A DNA stretch of 32,912 nucleotides, from assembly GCA_016928575.1 (NCBI GenBank), contig JAFGKK010000121.1, forward strand, positions 1 through 32,912, in the 5' to 3' direction. This document shows positions 12,891-29,722 of this stretch, in pieces. Under the pieces are notes generated by a model that saw only the letters and a list, made by a program, of their open reading frames with translations, was not told the origin of the DNA and did no database searches. Numbering within the stretch: the stretch's first letter is position 1; the number at the start of each line of letters is the position of its first letter. The position numbers and the translations under genes are program-made. Source of the DNA: Anaerolineales bacterium. GTDB lineage: Bacteria; Chloroflexota; Anaerolineae; Anaerolineales; RBG-16-64-43.

Positions 12891-13000
12891 TCAGGCGGGG
12901 GCGGAGACCGGTCCGATCCGTCCTGCGATCGTGCGGCCCGTCATCACCGCGCCGGTCCGGCGGATGCGCGGCGACAATGCGCCGTGCGGCGCAAATCGCG

Positions 13001-13006
13001 TACAAT
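13001..13006 (+). promoter_or_regulatory. Candidate -10 box next to a start codon
   Basis: TACAAT ends nine bases before the ATG at 13016, so the transcript would have a leader of about zero to three bases. No Shine-Dalgarno is present between the box and the ATG. This also decides the start of the downstream gene over the in-frame codon at 12977. Confidence 0.5.
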
Positions 13007-13015
13007 GCAGGTCCT

Positions 13016-15391
13016 ATGCGAGAGTGGAATCTGCAGGCGGCCGATCCGCTGTCCCTCTTCCTCGCCGCCGACGCCCGGTTTTGCGCCCCGGATTACGCCG
13101 ACGACCAGGTTTGGGAGCTGTGCCTGCGCGGCGGGGATCCTCCCGCGCTGGCCGCGGAGACTATGCTGGGCTTGCGCGCCGTCTCGCTTCGCCTGTTTCC
13201 GGTTTTCATTTCAGCCAGCCGGCCCGTGCAGGATCCGGCGGCGTTTGCTTCGCCGCCGGCGGTGCGCCGCTTCGCGCCGAATTACCTGAAGGTGTACTGC
13301 GCCCCGAATAAAGATTTGGTGGCGGTGTGCGAATACTGGGTCCCGGATTCGCACACGCTGGCCGGAAGGATCACGCTGAACGCGGCCGGGCCCGATCCGG
13401 TTAGCGGGGAATGCCTGCTGGCGGGCATCCTCCGTCCGGCGGCGGAGGGTTCGCCGTTCACCGCCGAGTCGGCGGGCCCCTACGAGGGCGTGTATCTACG
13501 CGGGAAGGTGCGGAACGCGGTGCCGGTCCTGGTAGCGGCGGCCGCGGCTGGAATCGGCCGGGGGGCCGTCCCTTCGCTTAAGGTGGCTTTCGAAGCCGGT
13601 CCGGAGCGGCCCGCCTTCGTGCGCTGGGTGTTCTCCTGCCTGCCCACGGCGGAGGAGGGATTACGCAGCGCGCGGGTGGTCCTGGCGCGGGAATGGGACG
13701 CGGAAACCGCGCGGATCGAACTGGCGGGCGAATCGATTCCGGATTTCGAGACCGGCCGCAAGGATTGGGACGCGGTCCTGGCCTTCTCCCAGACGTCGGC
13801 GATCCAATCGCTGGTCGGGGCTACCCGCCATCTGCCGCACGCCTCGCCGGTGAACGGCCGCAATCCGGAGCGCGGCTACTCGCTGCGCGGCGACGGCGGA
13901 GATTATGCGCCGGCCTGGTCCGGAGCAAACCTGGCCGATCTGATGCTCATCCTCCCGGTGTGGGCGCTCGCCAGGACCGAAGCGGCCAAGGACCTGCTGA
14001 GGAATTATCTCGTTGCGGCCGGCGAGGGACTGCCGGATGCGCGCCCCGGCGCCGGGAGGCAGCGCGCCGGACTGCTCGCGCCGCCGCTCCTGGCGCAAGC
14101 CGCAGGCCGGGCGACAGCCGGCCGCGAGGACCCGCAGTTCGTGGCCGAACTCTGGCCGCTGATCGAACGGACACTGGAAGCGTGGTTCGATCCGGCGCAC
14201 GACCGCGACCAGGACGGTGCGCCGGAATGGGACCGTGCGGATTCCCTCGGTCCGGAAACCGCGCCGATGTTCGCGCGCAGGGAGCCGCACGGCGGCTGGA
14301 TCCTGCCGGAGGAGGTGGAGAGTCCGTCGTTGGCGGCGCTCCTGGCGGGTGAATGCTCAGCCGCCGCGCGCCTCTCGCGGCTGGTCGACGTGCCCGAGCG
14401 CGCGCAGTACTGGAACAAGCGCGGCGGCGAAGCCCGCCGGGCGTTGGAAAAGATGGCGGCCGCGGACGCCTACCGGACGCTCGACCGCGTGACGCATGCT
14501 TCCCCGGCCGGAAGGAACTTATGGTGCGGCCGCCCCGGCGGATCGACCGCCTTGCACGCCGATCTGGAGGAATCCGCCCGAATCCTTCTGCGTTGTTCGG
14601 GCGCGCCGGAAACTCGGCCGATCCTGCGGGTGATCCTCTCCGGAAGGGACGCGCAGGGCAAGGAATGCGAAGAGGAATTCCGCGGCGAAAATTTCTTCTG
14701 GCTGAGGGGGGCCGGCGCCTGCTTCAGTCGCACGGTTTGGAAGCGGATCGATGCGATCCGCGCCGCCGGGCCGGCGGAGGGAATGGAGTTCCGGATCGAC
14801 CTTCCCGGCCTGAGGCGGGAGGATCTCTCGCATTTTCTGCCGCTGTGGAGCCGGTCGGTCCCGGCCGCGCGCGCGGAGGCGCTGCTCGGGCGGCTGGCCG
14901 CCGGTTCGGCGTTCGATTCCCGCTTCGGCCTGCGGTTCGTCCCGCGCACCGATCCCGCCGCCGGAGTGGAAGACGGCGGCGTGTGGATGGTTTGGAATAT
15001 GCTGATGGGGGAGGCCGCGCTCCGGCTGGGAAAGGGAGACCTTGTGCTGGAGTGGGTGGAAAAGTGGATGGACGCGCTCGCGGCTTCCCTGCGCGCCGAC
15101 CATTCTTTCCGCTCCTGTTACGACCCCGAACGCGGCGCGGGATGGGGGCCGCGCAACTCCCTGCAAGGGATCTTCCCCGTCGGCCTGTTTCTTTCGGCGC
15201 TGGGTGTGCATCCGGTATCCACCAACAGATTATGGGCGGGAGGCCGGTCGATCTTCCCCTTCCCGGTGACCATCCGCTGGCGCGGGATGACGATCCTGCG
15301 CGAGGGCGAGACCGTCCGCGTTGAATTTCCTTCCGGACGCATCCGCCACTGGCGGGGTTCCGGGCGGATGCTGATTGCGGACGAAGAGTGA
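13016..15391 (+). CDS. Large cytoplasmic protein, probable six-hairpin glycosidase-like
   Basis: The 791-residue protein lacks a signal peptide and membrane segments. The first 220 residues are beta-rich. The remainder contains helical-repeat features like those of (alpha/alpha)6 glycoside hydrolases of the GH63/GH37 type. These include an aspartate-rich loop DRDQDGAPEWDRAD that fits a calcium-binding or catalytic loop, the segment VWMVWNMLMGEAALRLGKG, and the end AGWGPRNSLQGIFPVGLFL, where relatives close the barrel. The assignment is by pattern and I cannot name the substrate or the catalytic acid with certainty. The gene stands alone, divergent from the aminotransferase, with 442 bases of non-coding DNA after it. 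Confidence 0.6.
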   Translation: MREWNLQAADPLSLFLAADARFCAPDYADDQVWELCLRGGDPPALAAETMLGLRAVSLRLFPVFISASRPVQDPAAFASPPAVRRFAPNYLKVYCAPNKDLVAVCEYWVPDSHTLAGRITLNAAGPDPVSGECLLAGILRPAAEGSPFTAESAGPYEGVYLRGKVRNAVPVLVAAAAAGIGRGAVPSLKVAFEAGPERPAFVRWVFSCLPTAEEGLRSARVVLAREWDAETARIELAGESIPDFETGRKDWDAVLAFSQTSAIQSLVGATRHLPHASPVNGRNPERGYSLRGDGGDYAPAWSGANLADLMLILPVWALARTEAAKDLLRNYLVAAGEGLPDARPGAGRQRAGLLAPPLLAQAAGRATAGREDPQFVAELWPLIERTLEAWFDPAHDRDQDGAPEWDRADSLGPETAPMFARREPHGGWILPEEVESPSLAALLAGECSAAARLSRLVDVPERAQYWNKRGGEARRALEKMAAADAYRTLDRVTHASPAGRNLWCGRPGGSTALHADLEESARILLRCSGAPETRPILRVILSGRDAQGKECEEEFRGENFFWLRGAGACFSRTVWKRIDAIRAAGPAEGMEFRIDLPGLRREDLSHFLPLWSRSVPAARAEALLGRLAAGSAFDSRFGLRFVPRTDPAAGVEDGGVWMVWNMLMGEAALRLGKGDLVLEWVEKWMDALAASLRADHSFRSCYDPERGAGWGPRNSLQGIFPVGLFLSALGVHPVSTNRLWAGGRSIFPFPVTIRWRGMTILREGETVRVEFPSGRIRHWRGSGRMLIADEE

Positions 15392-22966: not shown

Positions 22967-23366
22967 GGCCCTCTCATTCTTCCACATACGGGTGGAGAGG
23001 GGGCGGAGGGAACGGACGGTGAGAAGCTGTCAGTAAAAATCCGTGTCAACTCACTCCGATGCAAGTTTTTTTACAGGCCGATAAAAACTTTTCATTCCCC
23101 CCTCATCCCATCCTTCCGCCGCTGTTCCCCGCCGCTCTCGGGACGGGCGTTCCGGGATAAACACTCCCAGCCCACCTCTCACGATTGATGGTTTCGAATA
23201 ATTGCATCCTGGTTCCGCCAATATGGGGCAGGGAAGCCGGTCTCGGCGTAATTCCGGGAAGGGCGCCCGGACCTATCCCGAGCACTTGTCCCAAGCGCCC
23301 GCCGCCAAGAGCCGCCATTCCCTTCCCAAGATTTGCGCCGGGACGGGACTTCTTTTTTTCCTACCC

Positions 23367-23423
23367 CCAACCCTTCCCAACCCTAAGGGTCGACAAGGGT
23401 CGACAAGGGTTGGGAAGGGTTGG
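23367..23423. repeat. Perfect 18-bp inverted repeat with a repeated loop
   Basis: Arms 23367-23384 (CCAACCCTTCCCAACCCT) and 23406-23423 are exact reverse complements. The 21-base loop consists of two exact copies of AAGGGTCGAC plus one base, so the loop repeats resemble the start of the right arm. Slippage or duplication within the arm would explain this. It lies about 120 bases before the FHA promoter box. No T-tract follows, so a simple terminator is not indicated. Confidence 0.75.
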
Positions 23424-23540
23424 ACATTCGTTGGATTCCGCGGTCTTTTCTGCCGTAAAATGCATGTCCCCATTTGTCGCGGATAAATCGGTCGTTCCGA
23501 GTCGGAAGCGATTAGCGAGGCTGCCGAGGGGCGGGTGCGG

Positions 23541-23546
23541 TAGAAT
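23541..23546 (+). promoter_or_regulatory. Candidate -10 box next to the FHA protein start
   Basis: TAGAAT ends seven bases before the ATG at 23554. There is no Shine-Dalgarno between them. No clear -35 is seen. The arrangement matches the boxes at 6476, 13001, 15822 and 20076. Confidence 0.5.
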
Positions 23547-23553
23547 TCTCCCC

Positions 23554-25413
23554 ATGGAGCGGATCCGCCTGCCGGCCGTATTCGCGCTGATCGCAATTCC
23601 ACTCTGCCTCACCCCCTGTTCCGCTTCCGCGGCGGAAGGGGACACGGCCTATCTGTTCGGCCTCGACAACGCCCAATTCCCCCAAATCAGCGCCTTTCTC
23701 TCGGCCACGGACGGGCTCGGCTTCCGCCGGGAAGGGTTGACCGCGGAGCAGGTGACCCTGTGGGAAGACGATTCCCCCGCCCGCAACCTGGGTCTGAAGG
23801 AGGTTCAAACCGGCATGCGGCTAGTCGTCGTTTTGGATCCCGGGCTGGACCTGCTCTACAAGCTTCCCGACGGCGAGGCGCGCATCGACCGGCTGCGCCG
23901 CGCAATGGCCGATTGGCTCGGGACGCTTGGGCAACAGGGGATCGACGATCTGACGCTTGTCACCCCGCAGGGGATCGCCGTATCGCATGCTTCCGATCCG
24001 GAAACGTTCCTGGCCGGCCTGCGGGCGTATGCGCCGAAGATACCGGCGGAGCGGACGCTGGACGCCCTGCTGGTGGATGCGCTCGGGGCCGCGGCCGATC
24101 CGTTGCCGTATCCCGGAATGCGCGCGCTGATGATCGTGTTCTCCGCCTCGAGGCTTTCGCAGGCGGAGGACATCGGCAAAGGATTATGCCCGCGCGCCCG
24201 GGAACTGCACGCCCCGTTGTACGGGATCTGGTCCGGCCGCGTAGAGCCCTCGGCCCAAGCGGATATGGATGCCCTCGCGGGCTTGGCCGAAGAGTGCGGC
24301 GGCTACTCCGTCGCCCTGGAAAGCTCGACCGGGACGGCGACGATGTTGGGGGCCGTTGCCAGCCAGAGGATCCAATACCGGCTGGAGTATCGATCATCGG
24401 CTTCCGATTCCGGAGAACACACCCTCGCCGCCGCGGTGGCGCAGGAGGATTTCCAGGCCGAGACGGAGCCTCTGCGGTTTTCGCTGGCGGTCCAGCCGCC
24501 GGCGGTCGAATGGATCGATTTTCCGGAGCGGATAAGCCGCAAAGGAAGCGAGGTCTCCACTCACGTGGACGCCTATCTGCCCGGCGCCGTCGATTTGCGG
24601 GTCGAAGTCGTCTTTCCCGACGGGCACCCGCGGGAGATCGTCGCCATGCAGCTGTTTGCGGACGGAGAGTTGATCGAAGGGGAATGCCTGGGGAATCCGT
24701 GCCGCGGGATCCGCTTGGATTTGCGCCGGTACCCCTCGACGGCGACGATCCGCCTGCAGATGGTGGTCCGCGACGAACTCGGGCTGGAGGGAAAATCGGA
24801 GGAGCGGAAGCTTTGGCTTGCGGTGGAGCGTCCCGCGTTGTGGGATGTCTTCCGCCAACAATACCTTGTGCCGGCGGCGGTCATCCTGGGAGCGGCGGCG
24901 GCGGCCGGGATTCTGACCGCGACGCTGGTCAACCTGAACCGGATCCGCGCCGTGCGTGCGGCGGACGGATTGATCTTCCCGAACGCCGCCCCGGCGGCCG
25001 TGGTTCCGGGATCGGATCTGGCATCGCGCTTCGGCATCCGAAGGCGCAGGAAACGCTTCCCGGCCGAATCCCCGGCGGAGACCTACGCCGTGCTGGAAGA
25101 GCTCGGGGAAAGCGGCCGGCGTTACGAACTTACCGCCGAGGATGTGATCGTCGGCCGGGATCCGCGGGCGGCCGGGATCGTGCTGAACGATCCGTCGGTC
25201 TCTCCGCGCCACGGGCGGATCGTGCGCATGGGCGACGGGAGCCCGTGGATCTTCGATTTGGGATCGGCCGCGGGCTGCTGGAAGAATTTTGAGGAAGTTC
25301 CGCCGGAGGGGGCCTCCCTCCGGCAAGGGGACCGGTTGAATTTCGGACGGGCCGCGTTCCGCGTGCGGCTCAAGCCGCTCCCCGCCGGAAAGGAGATCCT
25401 CCATGAAGCGTAA
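23554..25413 (+). CDS. Secreted vWA-like and cytoplasmic FHA domain membrane protein
   Basis: The 619-residue protein has a signal peptide (residues 1-27, cleavage likely after SASA). An extracytoplasmic part of about 410 residues comprises a vWA-like domain and a beta-rich domain. A membrane helix at about 440-462 (YLVPAAVILGAAAAAGILTA) and a C-terminal FHA domain (about 525-605) follow. In the vWA-like domain the metal-site signature is degenerate (LDPGLD instead of D-x-S-x-S). FHA hallmarks are present: VIVGRDP, then VSPRHGRIV, then GSAAGCWKN. FHA domains bind phosphothreonine peptides, so the protein could relay an outside signal to a kinase/phosphatase system. Its stop overlaps the PP2C gene by 11 bases. 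Start chosen at 23554 for the TAGAAT box and the immediate signal peptide. Confidence 0.85.
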   Translation: MERIRLPAVFALIAIPLCLTPCSASAAEGDTAYLFGLDNAQFPQISAFLSATDGLGFRREGLTAEQVTLWEDDSPARNLGLKEVQTGMRLVVVLDPGLDLLYKLPDGEARIDRLRRAMADWLGTLGQQGIDDLTLVTPQGIAVSHASDPETFLAGLRAYAPKIPAERTLDALLVDALGAAADPLPYPGMRALMIVFSASRLSQAEDIGKGLCPRARELHAPLYGIWSGRVEPSAQADMDALAGLAEECGGYSVALESSTGTATMLGAVASQRIQYRLEYRSSASDSGEHTLAAAVAQEDFQAETEPLRFSLAVQPPAVEWIDFPERISRKGSEVSTHVDAYLPGAVDLRVEVVFPDGHPREIVAMQLFADGELIEGECLGNPCRGIRLDLRRYPSTATIRLQMVVRDELGLEGKSEERKLWLAVERPALWDVFRQQYLVPAAVILGAAAAAGILTATLVNLNRIRAVRAADGLIFPNAAPAAVVPGSDLASRFGIRRRRKRFPAESPAETYAVLEELGESGRRYELTAEDVIVGRDPRAAGIVLNDPSVSPRHGRIVRMGDGSPWIFDLGSAAGCWKNFEEVPPEGASLRQGDRLNFGRAAFRVRLKPLPAGKEILHEA

Positions 25414-26323
25414 AGACTCGCCTCGGTTGGAAACGGCGGCGGATTCGCACATCGGCCAGGTGCGGACGAACAACGAAGACCGCTTCGCAGTGGTCCCTTT
25501 GGAATGCAACGGGGTGAGGAGCGTATTGGCCCTGGTGGCCGACGGCGTAGGCGGGCATGCCGCAGGCGAGGTGGCTTCGCAGACGGCGGTGGAGACGGCG
25601 GTGAACGCGGTGCGCGCCGATCCGTGCGCCAATCCGGTGAAGGTCCTGCCGGAAGCCGTGATCCGCGCGGGGCAGGCGGTGTTCTCACAAGCCGCGAAGG
25701 ATCCGGCCTTGCGGGGGATGGCCACCACGCTGGCGGCCGTCTGGGTGGTCGGGAGGCGGCTCTACAGCATCACCGTCGGCGATAGCCGGATCTATATGCG
25801 GCGGAAGGGAATTACATTCCAAGCCAGCGTCGATCACACTTGGGTCCAGGAAGCGGTGGAGCACGGATTGCTCACGCCCGACCAGGCCCATATGCATCCG
25901 AACGCGCACGTTCTGCGCCGGCATCTGGGCGGGGAGAAGGATCCACAGCCGGATCCGCGCCTACGGATCTCTCCGGACGAGCCGCTTCCGGAATCCGCCG
26001 AGCATCAGGGGATGACGATGGAAGACGGGGACGCGCTGGTGCTGTGCACCGACGGCTTGAGCGACCTGGTGCAGGCGGAGGACATCGGCCGGGCGCTGCG
26101 CCACAGACGGCTGGAGCGCACGATTCAGGAGCTGATCGAACTCGCGCGGCGGCGCGGAGGGCACGACAACATCACGGTGGCGGCGCTGCGATTCCCGGCG
26201 GCGGAAGCGTTCGGGCCGTTTCCGAATTGGCTCCGCCGGATTGTGGTGTTCGGCCTTTCCGCCCTGATCCTGGCCGCGGCGGCCGTCGCCGCCTATGCAA
26301 TCCTTTTAGCCCCGGGACGTTAA
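25403..26323 (+). CDS. PP2C-family serine/threonine protein phosphatase, membrane-anchored
   Basis: The 306-residue protein carries the PP2C motifs in order: GQVRTNNEDRF (metal Asp), LVADGVGGHAAGEVAS (two metal positions), GMATTLAAVWV, VGDSRIY, CTDGLSDLV and GGHDNITVAALRF. It should dephosphorylate Ser/Thr residues using Mn or Mg. The C-terminus ends in a membrane helix (VVFGLSALILAAAAVAAYAI), so the catalytic domain lies on the cytoplasmic side near the FHA domain of its partner. Its ATG overlaps the upstream gene by 11 bases and is preceded by AAAGGAG, indicating coupled translation. No Ser/Thr kinase gene is present in the window, although kinases often accompany this pair. Confidence 0.93.
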   Translation: MKRKDSPRLETAADSHIGQVRTNNEDRFAVVPLECNGVRSVLALVADGVGGHAAGEVASQTAVETAVNAVRADPCANPVKVLPEAVIRAGQAVFSQAAKDPALRGMATTLAAVWVVGRRLYSITVGDSRIYMRRKGITFQASVDHTWVQEAVEHGLLTPDQAHMHPNAHVLRRHLGGEKDPQPDPRLRISPDEPLPESAEHQGMTMEDGDALVLCTDGLSDLVQAEDIGRALRHRRLERTIQELIELARRRGGHDNITVAALRFPAAEAFGPFPNWLRRIVVFGLSALILAAAAVAAYAILLAPGR

Positions 26324-26551: not shown

Positions 26552-27982
26552 TCATCCGGGGCCGGACGGCGTGCCCCCGGCCGCTTTCTCGGTGACGAAG
26601 CGGGCGAAGATCAGCGCCGCGGCGAAGCGGCCGATGGCGGACAGCGCGAACACCGCCTTGTAGCCGAAGGCCGTCACCACGGCGCCGCCGGCGAGGGAGC
26701 CGAGGGCCAGCGATAGGGCGACGACGATCTGGTGGATGGCGGTAAAGCGCGCCCGCTCGGAGCGCGGGCTGATCTGCATCAGCAGGTTTAGGACGCACAT
26801 CGTAAACCCCGACCACAGCGCTCCCGAGGCAAGGTTGATCCACAGGACGTATCCGGGGGAGGGGACGATAATCCAGGCCAGCGGAAGGGCGGGGATCAGC
26901 AGGCTGGTGATCAGAACGATCCGCCGCGGCCCCCAGCGGTCGGCGAGCGGGCCGAAGATCCGCAAGGCCGGCAGGCTGGAAAGGCTCATGGCGGCGGTGA
27001 GCAGTCCGACTTGGATCATCGTCGCCTTTAGATCGCGAACCAGGTAGACGTTGAAAAACGGGGCGGCGACATTGAGCGAAAAATTCCACACGGCGCTGTG
27101 CAGGCACAAGGCGAGGAAGACGGGATGGGCGAGGACGCTGCCGAGGATCGGCGACGGTCCGGCGGGCGGAACGCGGGGCGAAGGCCGGGGCGAGGGATCC
27201 TGGATCCGCGAGAAGCAGAACCAGGAGGCGCCGCCGGACAGGAAGGCCAACCCAAACGCCCATTGGTATCCGGCGGGAAACCCTTCCTGGTTGATGATCC
27301 AGCCGGCGGCGAAGGCGGCGGCCATGCCGGCGACGGTTTGAGCGATCGTGCGTGAGGAGAAGTAGCGCCCGCGCTGGCCGAGCGGGACGATATCGGCGGC
27401 CAGGGAAGTCCAGGCCGGGAGCGAAAGGTTGCCGGCTGTATCCCGCAGGACGACCAGCGCAATCGCCAGATGCACCGCGGCTTCCCCCCGCAGGAAGAAT
27501 GGGATCAGCAGGAGGAGCAGGATCACGATCCGTCCGACCGCGCCGCCGGCAACCAGGACGATTTGCTTGCGCACCCCGAAGCGTTCTGAGAGGAACGCCC
27601 CGGGCAGGAGGGCTAGCGCCGCGCCAAGGCCGGAAAGGGCGCCGAGCAGCCCGATCTGTGCGGAACTTGCGCCGAGCGCCACGGCGAACAACACCAGATA
27701 GGCGTTGATGATCGAATCGCTTCCGAGGGCGAACGCGCCGTCGAACCAGAACCAACGCAGGGACGCCCGCGCTTGTTTCGGCAGATCGCCCACCCAACGG
27801 CCGCCGGCGCTGATCAGGGCGGCTTGGCTTCGCAGGCGGGCCAACGGGGCCGCGGGCGGAAATCCGGCGGGGCGGGGCGGAAATTTCGGCTTGGCCGCGC
27901 GGTCGGCCTGCGGCGGATGCGGAGCGGGATTAACTGCGGGCTTGCGAGACGCCCGGCGGGGCTTGGCGGACGGTTTTCCCAT
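26552..27982 (-). CDS. Major facilitator superfamily transporter with basic N-terminal extension
   Basis: The 476-residue protein has about 12 membrane segments after residue 75, with the MFS loop signature around FLSERFGVRKQIVLV and a second-half copy GPLADRWGPRRIVLI. Substrate is not evident; MFS proteins of this general appearance are usually annotated as drug or sugar exporters. The first 75 residues are unusually long, rich in Pro, Arg and Lys, and probably cytoplasmic. No Shine-Dalgarno precedes the ATG at 27982 (the bases upstream are C/T-rich), so a later start near residue 64 (VGDLPKQ) is possible. The gene begins 21 bases after the second DarA-like gene on the same strand and is probably cotranscribed with it. 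Confidence 0.85.
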   Translation of the reverse strand: MGKPSAKPRRASRKPAVNPAPHPPQADRAAKPKFPPRPAGFPPAAPLARLRSQAALISAGGRWVGDLPKQARASLRWFWFDGAFALGSDSIINAYLVLFAVALGASSAQIGLLGALSGLGAALALLPGAFLSERFGVRKQIVLVAGGAVGRIVILLLLLIPFFLRGEAAVHLAIALVVLRDTAGNLSLPAWTSLAADIVPLGQRGRYFSSRTIAQTVAGMAAAFAAGWIINQEGFPAGYQWAFGLAFLSGGASWFCFSRIQDPSPRPSPRVPPAGPSPILGSVLAHPVFLALCLHSAVWNFSLNVAAPFFNVYLVRDLKATMIQVGLLTAAMSLSSLPALRIFGPLADRWGPRRIVLITSLLIPALPLAWIIVPSPGYVLWINLASGALWSGFTMCVLNLLMQISPRSERARFTAIHQIVVALSLALGSLAGGAVVTAFGYKAVFALSAIGRFAAALIFARFVTEKAAGGTPSGPG

Positions 27983-28003: not shown

Positions 28004-28267
28004 TCAGATCTGCTCGAAGACGGGCGAATCGACAACGAACAGGATGGCGCGGTTCTGGCCTGATTCGGCCGGACAACAGGTCCGGCGGAAGATTTCCACG
28101 ATCTCTTCCAGCTTGTCTTCGGGGATGCCGATTAGAAGGGTGACATTGCCTTTTCGCAAAAAGCCGCCGGTGGAGGCGATGCGCGTGAACCGAAAGCCCC
28201 GTTCGGTCAGGCGGTCGGTGAGCGCCGGATCGTCGATATCGCGGATGACACATATGAGAAGTTTCAT
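28004..28267 (-). CDS. DarA/PstA-like small protein, putative cyclic-di-AMP receptor (short form)
   Basis: The 87-residue protein matches the DUF970 (DarA/PstA) family: MKLLICVIRD at the start, then RFTRIASTGGFLRKGNVTLL. In the N-terminal half R26, T28, F36, L37, N41 and G47 fall at the positions that contact cyclic-di-AMP in characterised PstA proteins, as I recall them. It is shorter than the usual 105-115 residues and lacks the E-V-GGA segment. It therefore misses part of the C-terminal strand pair, though it keeps a final hydrophobic strand (RAILFVVDSPVF). Such PII-fold trimers bind the second messenger, but the output is unknown. GAAAGG overlapping the upstream stop serves as ribosome site. 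It lies 11 bases after its paralogue and before an MFS gene. Confidence 0.75.
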   Translation of the reverse strand: MKLLICVIRDIDDPALTDRLTERGFRFTRIASTGGFLRKGNVTLLIGIPEDKLEEIVEIFRRTCCPAESGQNRAILFVVDSPVFEQI

Positions 28268-28278
28268 GCGGCGGCCTT

Positions 28279-28623
28279 TCAGAGTTGGATGAATCGTTCG
28301 ACGGGAAACGCAACCAGAAAAGCGCCTCCGACCTCGGCTTCGATCATCAGCGGCAGAGTGGGCAGGAGCGAACCGTCGGGCTGGACCGGGACCAGCCGTT
28401 TGTGGGTGGCGCACAGGCTGCGGACATGCTCAAGCAGGATGTTTTGATCCGCGCCGGAAAAGCCGATCAAGAGGGTGGAGGAGGGTTCCAGGATGAAGCC
28501 GCCGCGGCTTTCGATGATCGTGACTTGGAATCCGGCTTGGGTCAGCCGGCGGGTGAGTTCGTCGGCGGTTCCTCCTTGCAGGATGATGATGGCCACGCGG
28601 TCGACGGATTTATTCGATGCCAT
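28279..28623 (-). CDS. DarA/PstA-like small protein, divergent paralogue (full length)
   Basis: The 114-residue protein has the same layout as DarA/PstA, including the C-terminal segment EAEVGGAFLVAFPVERF that matches family members closely (E-V-GGA then P-V-x-x-F). In the ligand loop, however, it reads TIIESRGGFILEPSSTLLIGF, so the family's T-GG-F-x-x-GN pattern is altered. The Thr/Asn contacts seen in its neighbour are replaced by Arg and Ser. It may have lost ligand binding or changed specificity, or form a hetero-oligomer with the short form; both are inferences. The ATG at 28623 follows a consensus promoter by 28 bases and has no strong Shine-Dalgarno. An upstream in-frame extension exists but would begin inside or before the promoter. 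Confidence 0.75.
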   Translation of the reverse strand: MASNKSVDRVAIIILQGGTADELTRRLTQAGFQVTIIESRGGFILEPSSTLLIGFSGADQNILLEHVRSLCATHKRLVPVQPDGSLLPTLPLMIEAEVGGAFLVAFPVERFIQL

Positions 28624-28657
28624 GGGCGGTCCCGGCGCAAACCCCGCGCCTGATACG

Positions 28658-28686
28658 AATATAACCTTGGCGCGGAGCGGTGTCAA
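28658..28686 (-). promoter_or_regulatory. Consensus sigma-70-type promoter for the DarA-like/MFS operon
   Basis: On the minus strand TTGACA (28686-28681) and TATATT (28663-28658) are separated by exactly 17 bases. Transcription would start near 28651, giving a leader of about 28 bases to the ATG at 28623. This is the best promoter match in the window. Confidence 0.7.
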
Positions 28687-29083: not shown

Positions 29084-29722
29084 ATGAACGCGGAAGCGTT
29101 GTTGGACATCACCGACATCTCCCTGTTGATGATCGAAGAGCGCCCGAAAAAAAGCGTCGTGGTCGCCGTCCCGCACCACGCACCGGCGGGGAAGGAAATC
29201 CTCCCCTGCCTGGAACACCAGGAAGCGGACGAGAACGCCGGATTCCTGGGCCGCTACCTGGCCGAACGCCTCAACTGCTGCAGCGTGATCGCCTGCAATT
29301 ATCCGGTGGATTCCAACAAGTTTTTCCGCAGCGATTACTCGATGCAGATCGCCGCCTGGAATCCGAAAGTGCTGGTGGAGATACACGGCCACAGCGGCCG
29401 GAAGGCCAAAGCCGCCGTCGAGATATCCTCGGGGGGCGGGGGAAGCGCCGTCCACGCCAAACTCCTGGCGGAGAAACTGGCGGAGGCGTTCCAGGAACAC
29501 GAGGCCCTGCGGGCCTTCACCGTGTGCGGGGATTACGAGGCGATCTTCTACAAGGCCAGCGGTACGGTGACGATCACGGACGGACGCTGGGTGGGCTATC
29601 ACATCGAACTGCCGCCGAACCTGCGCAAGATGATCGAGGGTATGGACACCAAACCGCCCAAGGCGGGGTACGCCTTCTGCGACGCGTTGGCGCGGGCGCT
29701 GCAGGAAATCCACAAGCTGTAA
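29084..29722 (+). CDS. Possible N-formylglutamate-deformylase-like metallohydrolase
   Basis: The 212-residue soluble protein has spaced histidine and acidic motifs reminiscent of the FGase/M14-like fold: VAVPHHAPAGKE near residue 30, EADENAGFLGRYLAERL, then NYPVDSNKFFRSDY, then LVEIHGHSGRKAK and VEISSG. The His-His, Asp-Glu and E-x-H-x-H groups could form a zinc site, but this is pattern-based and I would not exclude an unrelated family. Substrate is unknown. The ATG follows GAGGG by three bases. It stands alone between the divergent DarA-like operon and the PadR unit. Confidence 0.55.
   Translation: MNAEALLDITDISLLMIEERPKKSVVVAVPHHAPAGKEILPCLEHQEADENAGFLGRYLAERLNCCSVIACNYPVDSNKFFRSDYSMQIAAWNPKVLVEIHGHSGRKAKAAVEISSGGGGSAVHAKLLAEKLAEAFQEHEALRAFTVCGDYEAIFYKASGTVTITDGRWVGYHIELPPNLRKMIEGMDTKPPKAGYAFCDALARALQEIHKL

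Follow-up and report, generated by a model that had tools for sequence, protein, structure and literature searches.

The window analysed here, a stretch of 32,912 nucleotides from an Anaerolineales bacterium, carries two adjacent small genes of the DarA/PstA (PII-like) family directly upstream of a gene for an MFS transporter, which raises the question of what such a pair senses and what it acts upon. Crystal structures of DarA/PstA proteins with c-di-AMP have been available since 2014. In the literature PstA appears as a homotrimer that stands by itself, with no known partner, and as late as December 2025 the downstream partners of DarA/PstA were called unknown (PMC12802241). We propose, with about even confidence, that the two genes together encode a c-di-AMP receptor split in two, with a membrane transporter as its client.

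A probable three-gene operon with two PII-like proteins

All elements of the locus lie on the minus strand, in the order promoter, long paralogue, short paralogue, MFS gene. The sigma-70-type promoter (TTGACA-17-TATATT, 28658..28686) has 11 of 12 consensus bases and precedes the long gene (28279..28623; codons 28282-28623, stop 28279-28281; 114 aa) by about 35 nt. After 11 nt follows the short gene (28004..28267; codons 28007-28267, stop 28004-28006; 87 aa), and after another 21 nt the gene for a 476 aa MFS transporter (26552..27982, codons 26555-27982; PF07690, 1.6e-37). This last gap, also given in an initial annotation made from the sequence, applies to the annotated ATG; as the N-terminal ~70 aa of the MFS protein are poorly conserved, the real start may be internal. 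The same annotation had placed the genes under a single consensus promoter, and this proved sound: only 0.4 promoter-like sites are expected in shuffled sequence, and a matching promoter occurs at the equivalent position in a genome of the same genus (G001) and one of the same family (G003), both of which carry all three genes. Between the window and these two relatives, pN/pS values of about 0.20-0.43 for the long, short, and MFS genes indicate that all three are under purifying selection. The neighbors on both sides, a PP2C phosphatase gene (25403-26323) and a gene for an unknown protein (29084-29722), have the opposite orientation, which gives the three genes the appearance of an operon complete in itself. 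The PP2C phosphatase and an FHA-domain protein (together 23185-26323) are encoded convergently to the operon, and their clusters (c24, c25) are found at the corresponding position in G001 and G003. Rfam models, that of the ydaO element included, had no match along the whole window, and riboswitch control was ruled out there.

Both small proteins align with DUF970/PF06153 in profile searches, which bears out their earlier assignment to the DarA/PstA architecture. With a curated cut-off of 27 bits, the long protein matches at 1e-13 (51.9 bits, residues 11-113) and the short one at 1.4e-21 (77.2 bits), the latter over profile positions 1-65 of 109 only. PstA and DarA are the best PDB matches by sequence for both proteins, and they are also the top Foldseek matches of the AlphaFold models (pLDDT 85 for the long and 92 for the short protein), including PstA with c-di-AMP. 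Both models are thus predicted to have the PII-like ferredoxin fold. Against NCBIfam NF058593, the DarA equivalog model, the two proteins scored 45.9 and 70.2 bits, below its cut-off of 140.

The initial annotation had made its reading depend on a diadenylate cyclase gene in the genome, and one is present. By inspection of the sequence, the cyclase reads as CdaA-like and the next ORF as CdaR/YbbR-like. The genome also encodes a third DarA-like protein (L042:3882-4199; G000:C9:27881-28199), in which the GN of the ligand loop is replaced by SQ; its gene sits in an F-type ATPase operon, flanked by atpA-like and atpG-like genes. A DarA-like gene has the same position in the ATPase operons of loci L055, L059, and L062. 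The order in L062, (D)-C-Q-R-B-E-F-A-DarA-G, is that of Na+-type N-ATPase operons, with alternate-F1F0 models scoring below their cut-offs.

Division of ligand-site and loop features between the paralogues

In Staphylococcus aureus PstA, each c-di-AMP sits between two subunits, one contributing N24, R26, T28, G47, and Q108 and the other F36/L37 of the GGFL loop, N41, and F99 (PMC4316997). Binding tests showed T28, N41, and GGFL to be essential for c-di-AMP, and deletion of the B'-loop (71-87) did not abolish binding (PMC4316997). The B'-loop is presumed in the literature to be the effector contact of PstA.

These features are distributed between the two paralogues. In our alignment the short protein, with the loop sequence TRIASTGGFLRKGN, retains R26, T28, GGFL, N41, G47, F99, and Q108, and has G in place of N24, as do many family members. 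It is missing GGA and the B'-loop that leads from the second helix to the last strand; that strand is retained and includes the residues equivalent to F99 and Q108. The long protein (TIIESRGGFILEPSS) retains T28, GGF, G47, GGA, and Q108, has lost D12, R26, G40, N41, and F99, and has a degenerate ligand loop, ESRGGFILEPSS. It does possess the large B'-loop of residues 68-92, and GGA comes after it in the form EAEVGGA. Neither protein has the residue pair of the D12-R67 salt bridge, the residues aligned there being T12 and H67 in the long and D12 and A67 in the short protein. The description with which we began, a short protein that keeps a T-x-x-x-STGGF-x-x-GN loop and lacks an E-V-GGA segment beside a long protein that keeps the segment and has a changed loop, is therefore accurate.

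The retained contacts suggest that the short protein binds c-di-AMP. One could instead regard the long gene as a decaying duplicate and the short protein as the sole working DarA, given the several canonical ligand residues lost from the long proteins of the window's clade. This seems very improbable: the pN/pS of the long gene is 0.28-0.34 between the three genomes, GGA is invariant and the replaced loop conserved, and the model has the PstA fold at a pLDDT of 85. We discarded a pseudogene on the basis of pN/pS and conservation.

Tandems of this kind are widespread among Anaerolineales and their close relatives. PF06153 was found in 35 of 61 relatives, mostly as a long-short tandem, and all loci gathered together hold 91 long-short pairs, whose genes lie a median of 10 nt apart, among them Chloroflexota loci from Anaerolineales, Anaerolineaceae, and Thermoflexus. 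Single long-type DarA proteins were also met in Thermus, Firmicutes, and Armatimonadetes. Tandems exist outside Chloroflexota as well: in two loci of Tissierellia (Firmicutes; L128:5995-6625 and L136:1246-1844), a canonical DarA gene is directly followed by a short DarA-like gene. Elsewhere, a long or fused gene is followed by two short genes, of which the second is often divergent (L033:2150-4667, L037:3325-3867, and L124:5160-5686).

A tree of the long domains, built with columns 12 and 41 omitted, contains a clade of 68 members (support 98) that holds most of the antiporter-linked sequences described below and a clade of 21 (support 98) that holds the window; two sequences with an antiporter neighbor, from G006 and G019, fall outside the clade of 68. 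A tree of the short proteins shows the matching division (support 77), which agrees with joint inheritance of the pair. All 21 long proteins of the window's clade lack N41, while 18 of 20 short partners have it. The complementarity of losses proposed in the initial annotation is exact for this clade, but the antiporter clade differs: its long proteins usually keep GGFL and N41, have lost R26, and often lack Q108 and T28. Over the 91 pairs, N41 is found in the long protein only (39), the short only (21), both (22), or neither (9), with a Fisher p of 0.003. A tree-aware check left two independent contrasts on supported branches, and a sign test on them was not significant; we therefore do not count the reciprocal pattern as evidence and dropped it as proof of a shared site. 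No natural fusion of long and short in one frame, which would show contact, occurred in the loci read.

The conserved, differing losses fit a division of labor, which the initial annotation had suggested as subfunctionalization; the paralogues may also form the hetero-oligomer that it named as the alternative. It is also conceivable, although rather improbable in our judgment, that the paralogues form separate homotrimers, the short one acting as a c-di-AMP receptor or buffer that has no output loop and the long one having lost c-di-AMP to become constitutive or to take another ligand. The short protein does have a full homotrimer site, to which one face contributes F36 and N41 and the other face T28 and Q108, and the long proteins of close relatives conserve their replaced loop residues. 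However, the conservation of the tandem in 91 pairs, their median spacing of 10 nt, and the agreement of the two trees suggest a joint product, and a receptor without an output loop needs a partner.

Linkage of the pair to transporters

That PII-like regulation of transport was conceivable had been raised from the adjacency of the MFS gene alone, and the idea is strengthened by three kinds of linkage. The first is fusion: 21 long domains, including those of 14 genomes of the first sample, are the C-terminal domain of an antiporter. The fused proteins contain PF00999 (about residues 18-386) and PF06153 (about 528-631) in one frame, and their best NCBIfam model, above its cut-off, is a_cpa1 (Na+/H+ antiporter). 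Among 251 genomes sampled from the phylum, fused matches were confined to the window's order. One fusion gene (L069; G045:C73:43376-43624) has a TGA inside the DarA match and its antiporter match split over two frames, and probably reflects a damaged copy or a fault in the assembly.

The second kind is an unfused pair that follows a separate antiporter gene, seen in about nine loci (G004, G006, G014, G019, G027, G051, L092, L102, and L140); two of these antiporters were checked with NCBIfam, and both are of CPA2 type. Many fused and unfused pairs (L026, L032, L034, L044, and L048) are also preceded by a gene for a protein of ~800 aa with a weak match to PF22422 (MGH1-like glycoside hydrolase); its homolog in the window is encoded at 12977-15388, about 13 kb from the DarA pair.

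The third kind is that of the window. The initial annotation had allowed that the long-short-MFS order might be unique to this genome, and our survey instead found it in eight loci (the window, G001, G003, G018, G026, L074, L075, and L077). In G053, an MFS gene directly follows a lone long gene, which makes this the ninth MFS locus of the window's clade. MFS genes are common, but adjacency to one in 9 of 21 members greatly exceeds the background of 1-2% (binomial < 1e-9, for rows that are not independent). The MFS proteins of the clade belong to two subfamilies, ~24% identical, with G018 and G026 carrying the second one. Orthologs of the window's subfamily (E <= 1e-20) occur in five of the 61 relatives, in four of them beside a DarA gene; MFS proteins of this subfamily are encoded next to DarA genes in G001, G003, and G053, and also in L074, L075, and L077. 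The best model matches of the MFS protein were weak and of generic or multidrug type, too little to propose a substrate.

The transporter linkage of the DarA pair is thus well supported, through MFS loci, CPA1 fusions, and CPA2 neighbors, and is a conserved linkage of regulator and transporter genes of the kind known for GlnK and AmtB. It is not obligate: of 116 long domains, 55 are paired with a short gene in a neighborhood that lacks all of these transporters (e.g., in Thermoflexus). The presence in both clades of many pairs without such a neighbor, which indicates that the pair can function with no transporter beside it, is what favors another explanation: the pair could be a c-di-AMP receptor with its target elsewhere, the MFS gene being merely co-expressed in a shared osmotic or ion-stress response. 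We consider this possible, if fairly unlikely, since MFS genes of two subfamilies recur directly downstream and sister long proteins are physically fused to an antiporter. On the preferred reading of a receptor that serves a transporter, the MFS protein encoded next to the pair is the likeliest client in the window genome, where we detected no CPA antiporter, and the pair would control this MFS protein. PF00999 had no match in this genome (G000) or in G001, G003, and G018.

A candidate output for DarA/PstA proteins

In the mechanism that we propose, the short subunit would bind c-di-AMP made by the CdaA-like cyclase, and short and long subunits would form a mixed PII-like ring. The B'-loop of the long subunit, or the tether in the fusions, would contact the transporter, and ligand binding would move the loop and turn the transporter up or down, as GlnK does on AmtB or SbtB on SbtA. 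The fold, the T'-loop motif and contact residues of the short protein, and the B'-loop and GGA strand of the long protein resemble those of PstA/DarA. Known PstA, however, is one homotrimeric protein with both loop types, whereas here the features are split between tandem paralogues. PII-type control of transporters is well known from GlnK-AmtB and SbtB-SbtA, with which the proposed system would share a small PII-fold protein that acts on a transporter, and glnK and amtB are also gene neighbors; nucleotide-controlled gating has been proposed as the action of these systems (PMC10710835). Those systems differ in that a single homotrimer acts on a transporter that is itself trimeric, and in their ligands or modifications, while the DarA pair comprises two paralogues, with c-di-AMP as presumed ligand and CPA1, CPA2, or MFS proteins as candidate partners.

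CPA1 proteins are dimers and MFS proteins are monomers. As the known PII-controlled transporters are reportedly those that work as trimers (PMC10710835), this counts against the proposal: either the assembly would not be a plain C3 trimer, or the mode of control would differ. We can only speculate that a ring of two paralogues would break C3 symmetry. A more general proposal, which we regard as unlikely enough to be offered only tentatively, is that the DarA family of Anaerolineae are general ion-transporter regulators, in which a symmetry-broken ring of short sensor and long adaptor lets c-di-AMP gate non-trimeric transporters: CPA1 via fusion, CPA2 and MFS via the operon, and perhaps a Na+-type F-ATPase via the third paralogue (atpA-atpG).

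Control of cation/proton antiporters by c-di-AMP is an established theme (PMC7288161). CpaA-type antiporters receive c-di-AMP via RCK_C, whereas the fusions described here are CPA1 antiporters with a DarA domain added at the C-terminus; a Pfam scan detected PF00999 and PF06153 in them and no match to RCK_C (TrkA_C). In the literature searched, to which subscription journals contribute little, we found no report of PF06153/DUF970/PII-like antiporter fusions, which does not establish priority. As the partners of PstA were still considered unknown, the CPA1-DarA fusions offer a testable output, and together with the repeated transporter linkage they provide a concrete candidate output for DarA/PstA that can be tested with one protein. 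If the proposal is true, it would add a PII-like route of c-di-AMP control over ion balance beside the RCK, USP, and riboswitch routes, and would be an example of a homotrimeric sensor split into sensing and coupling subunits.
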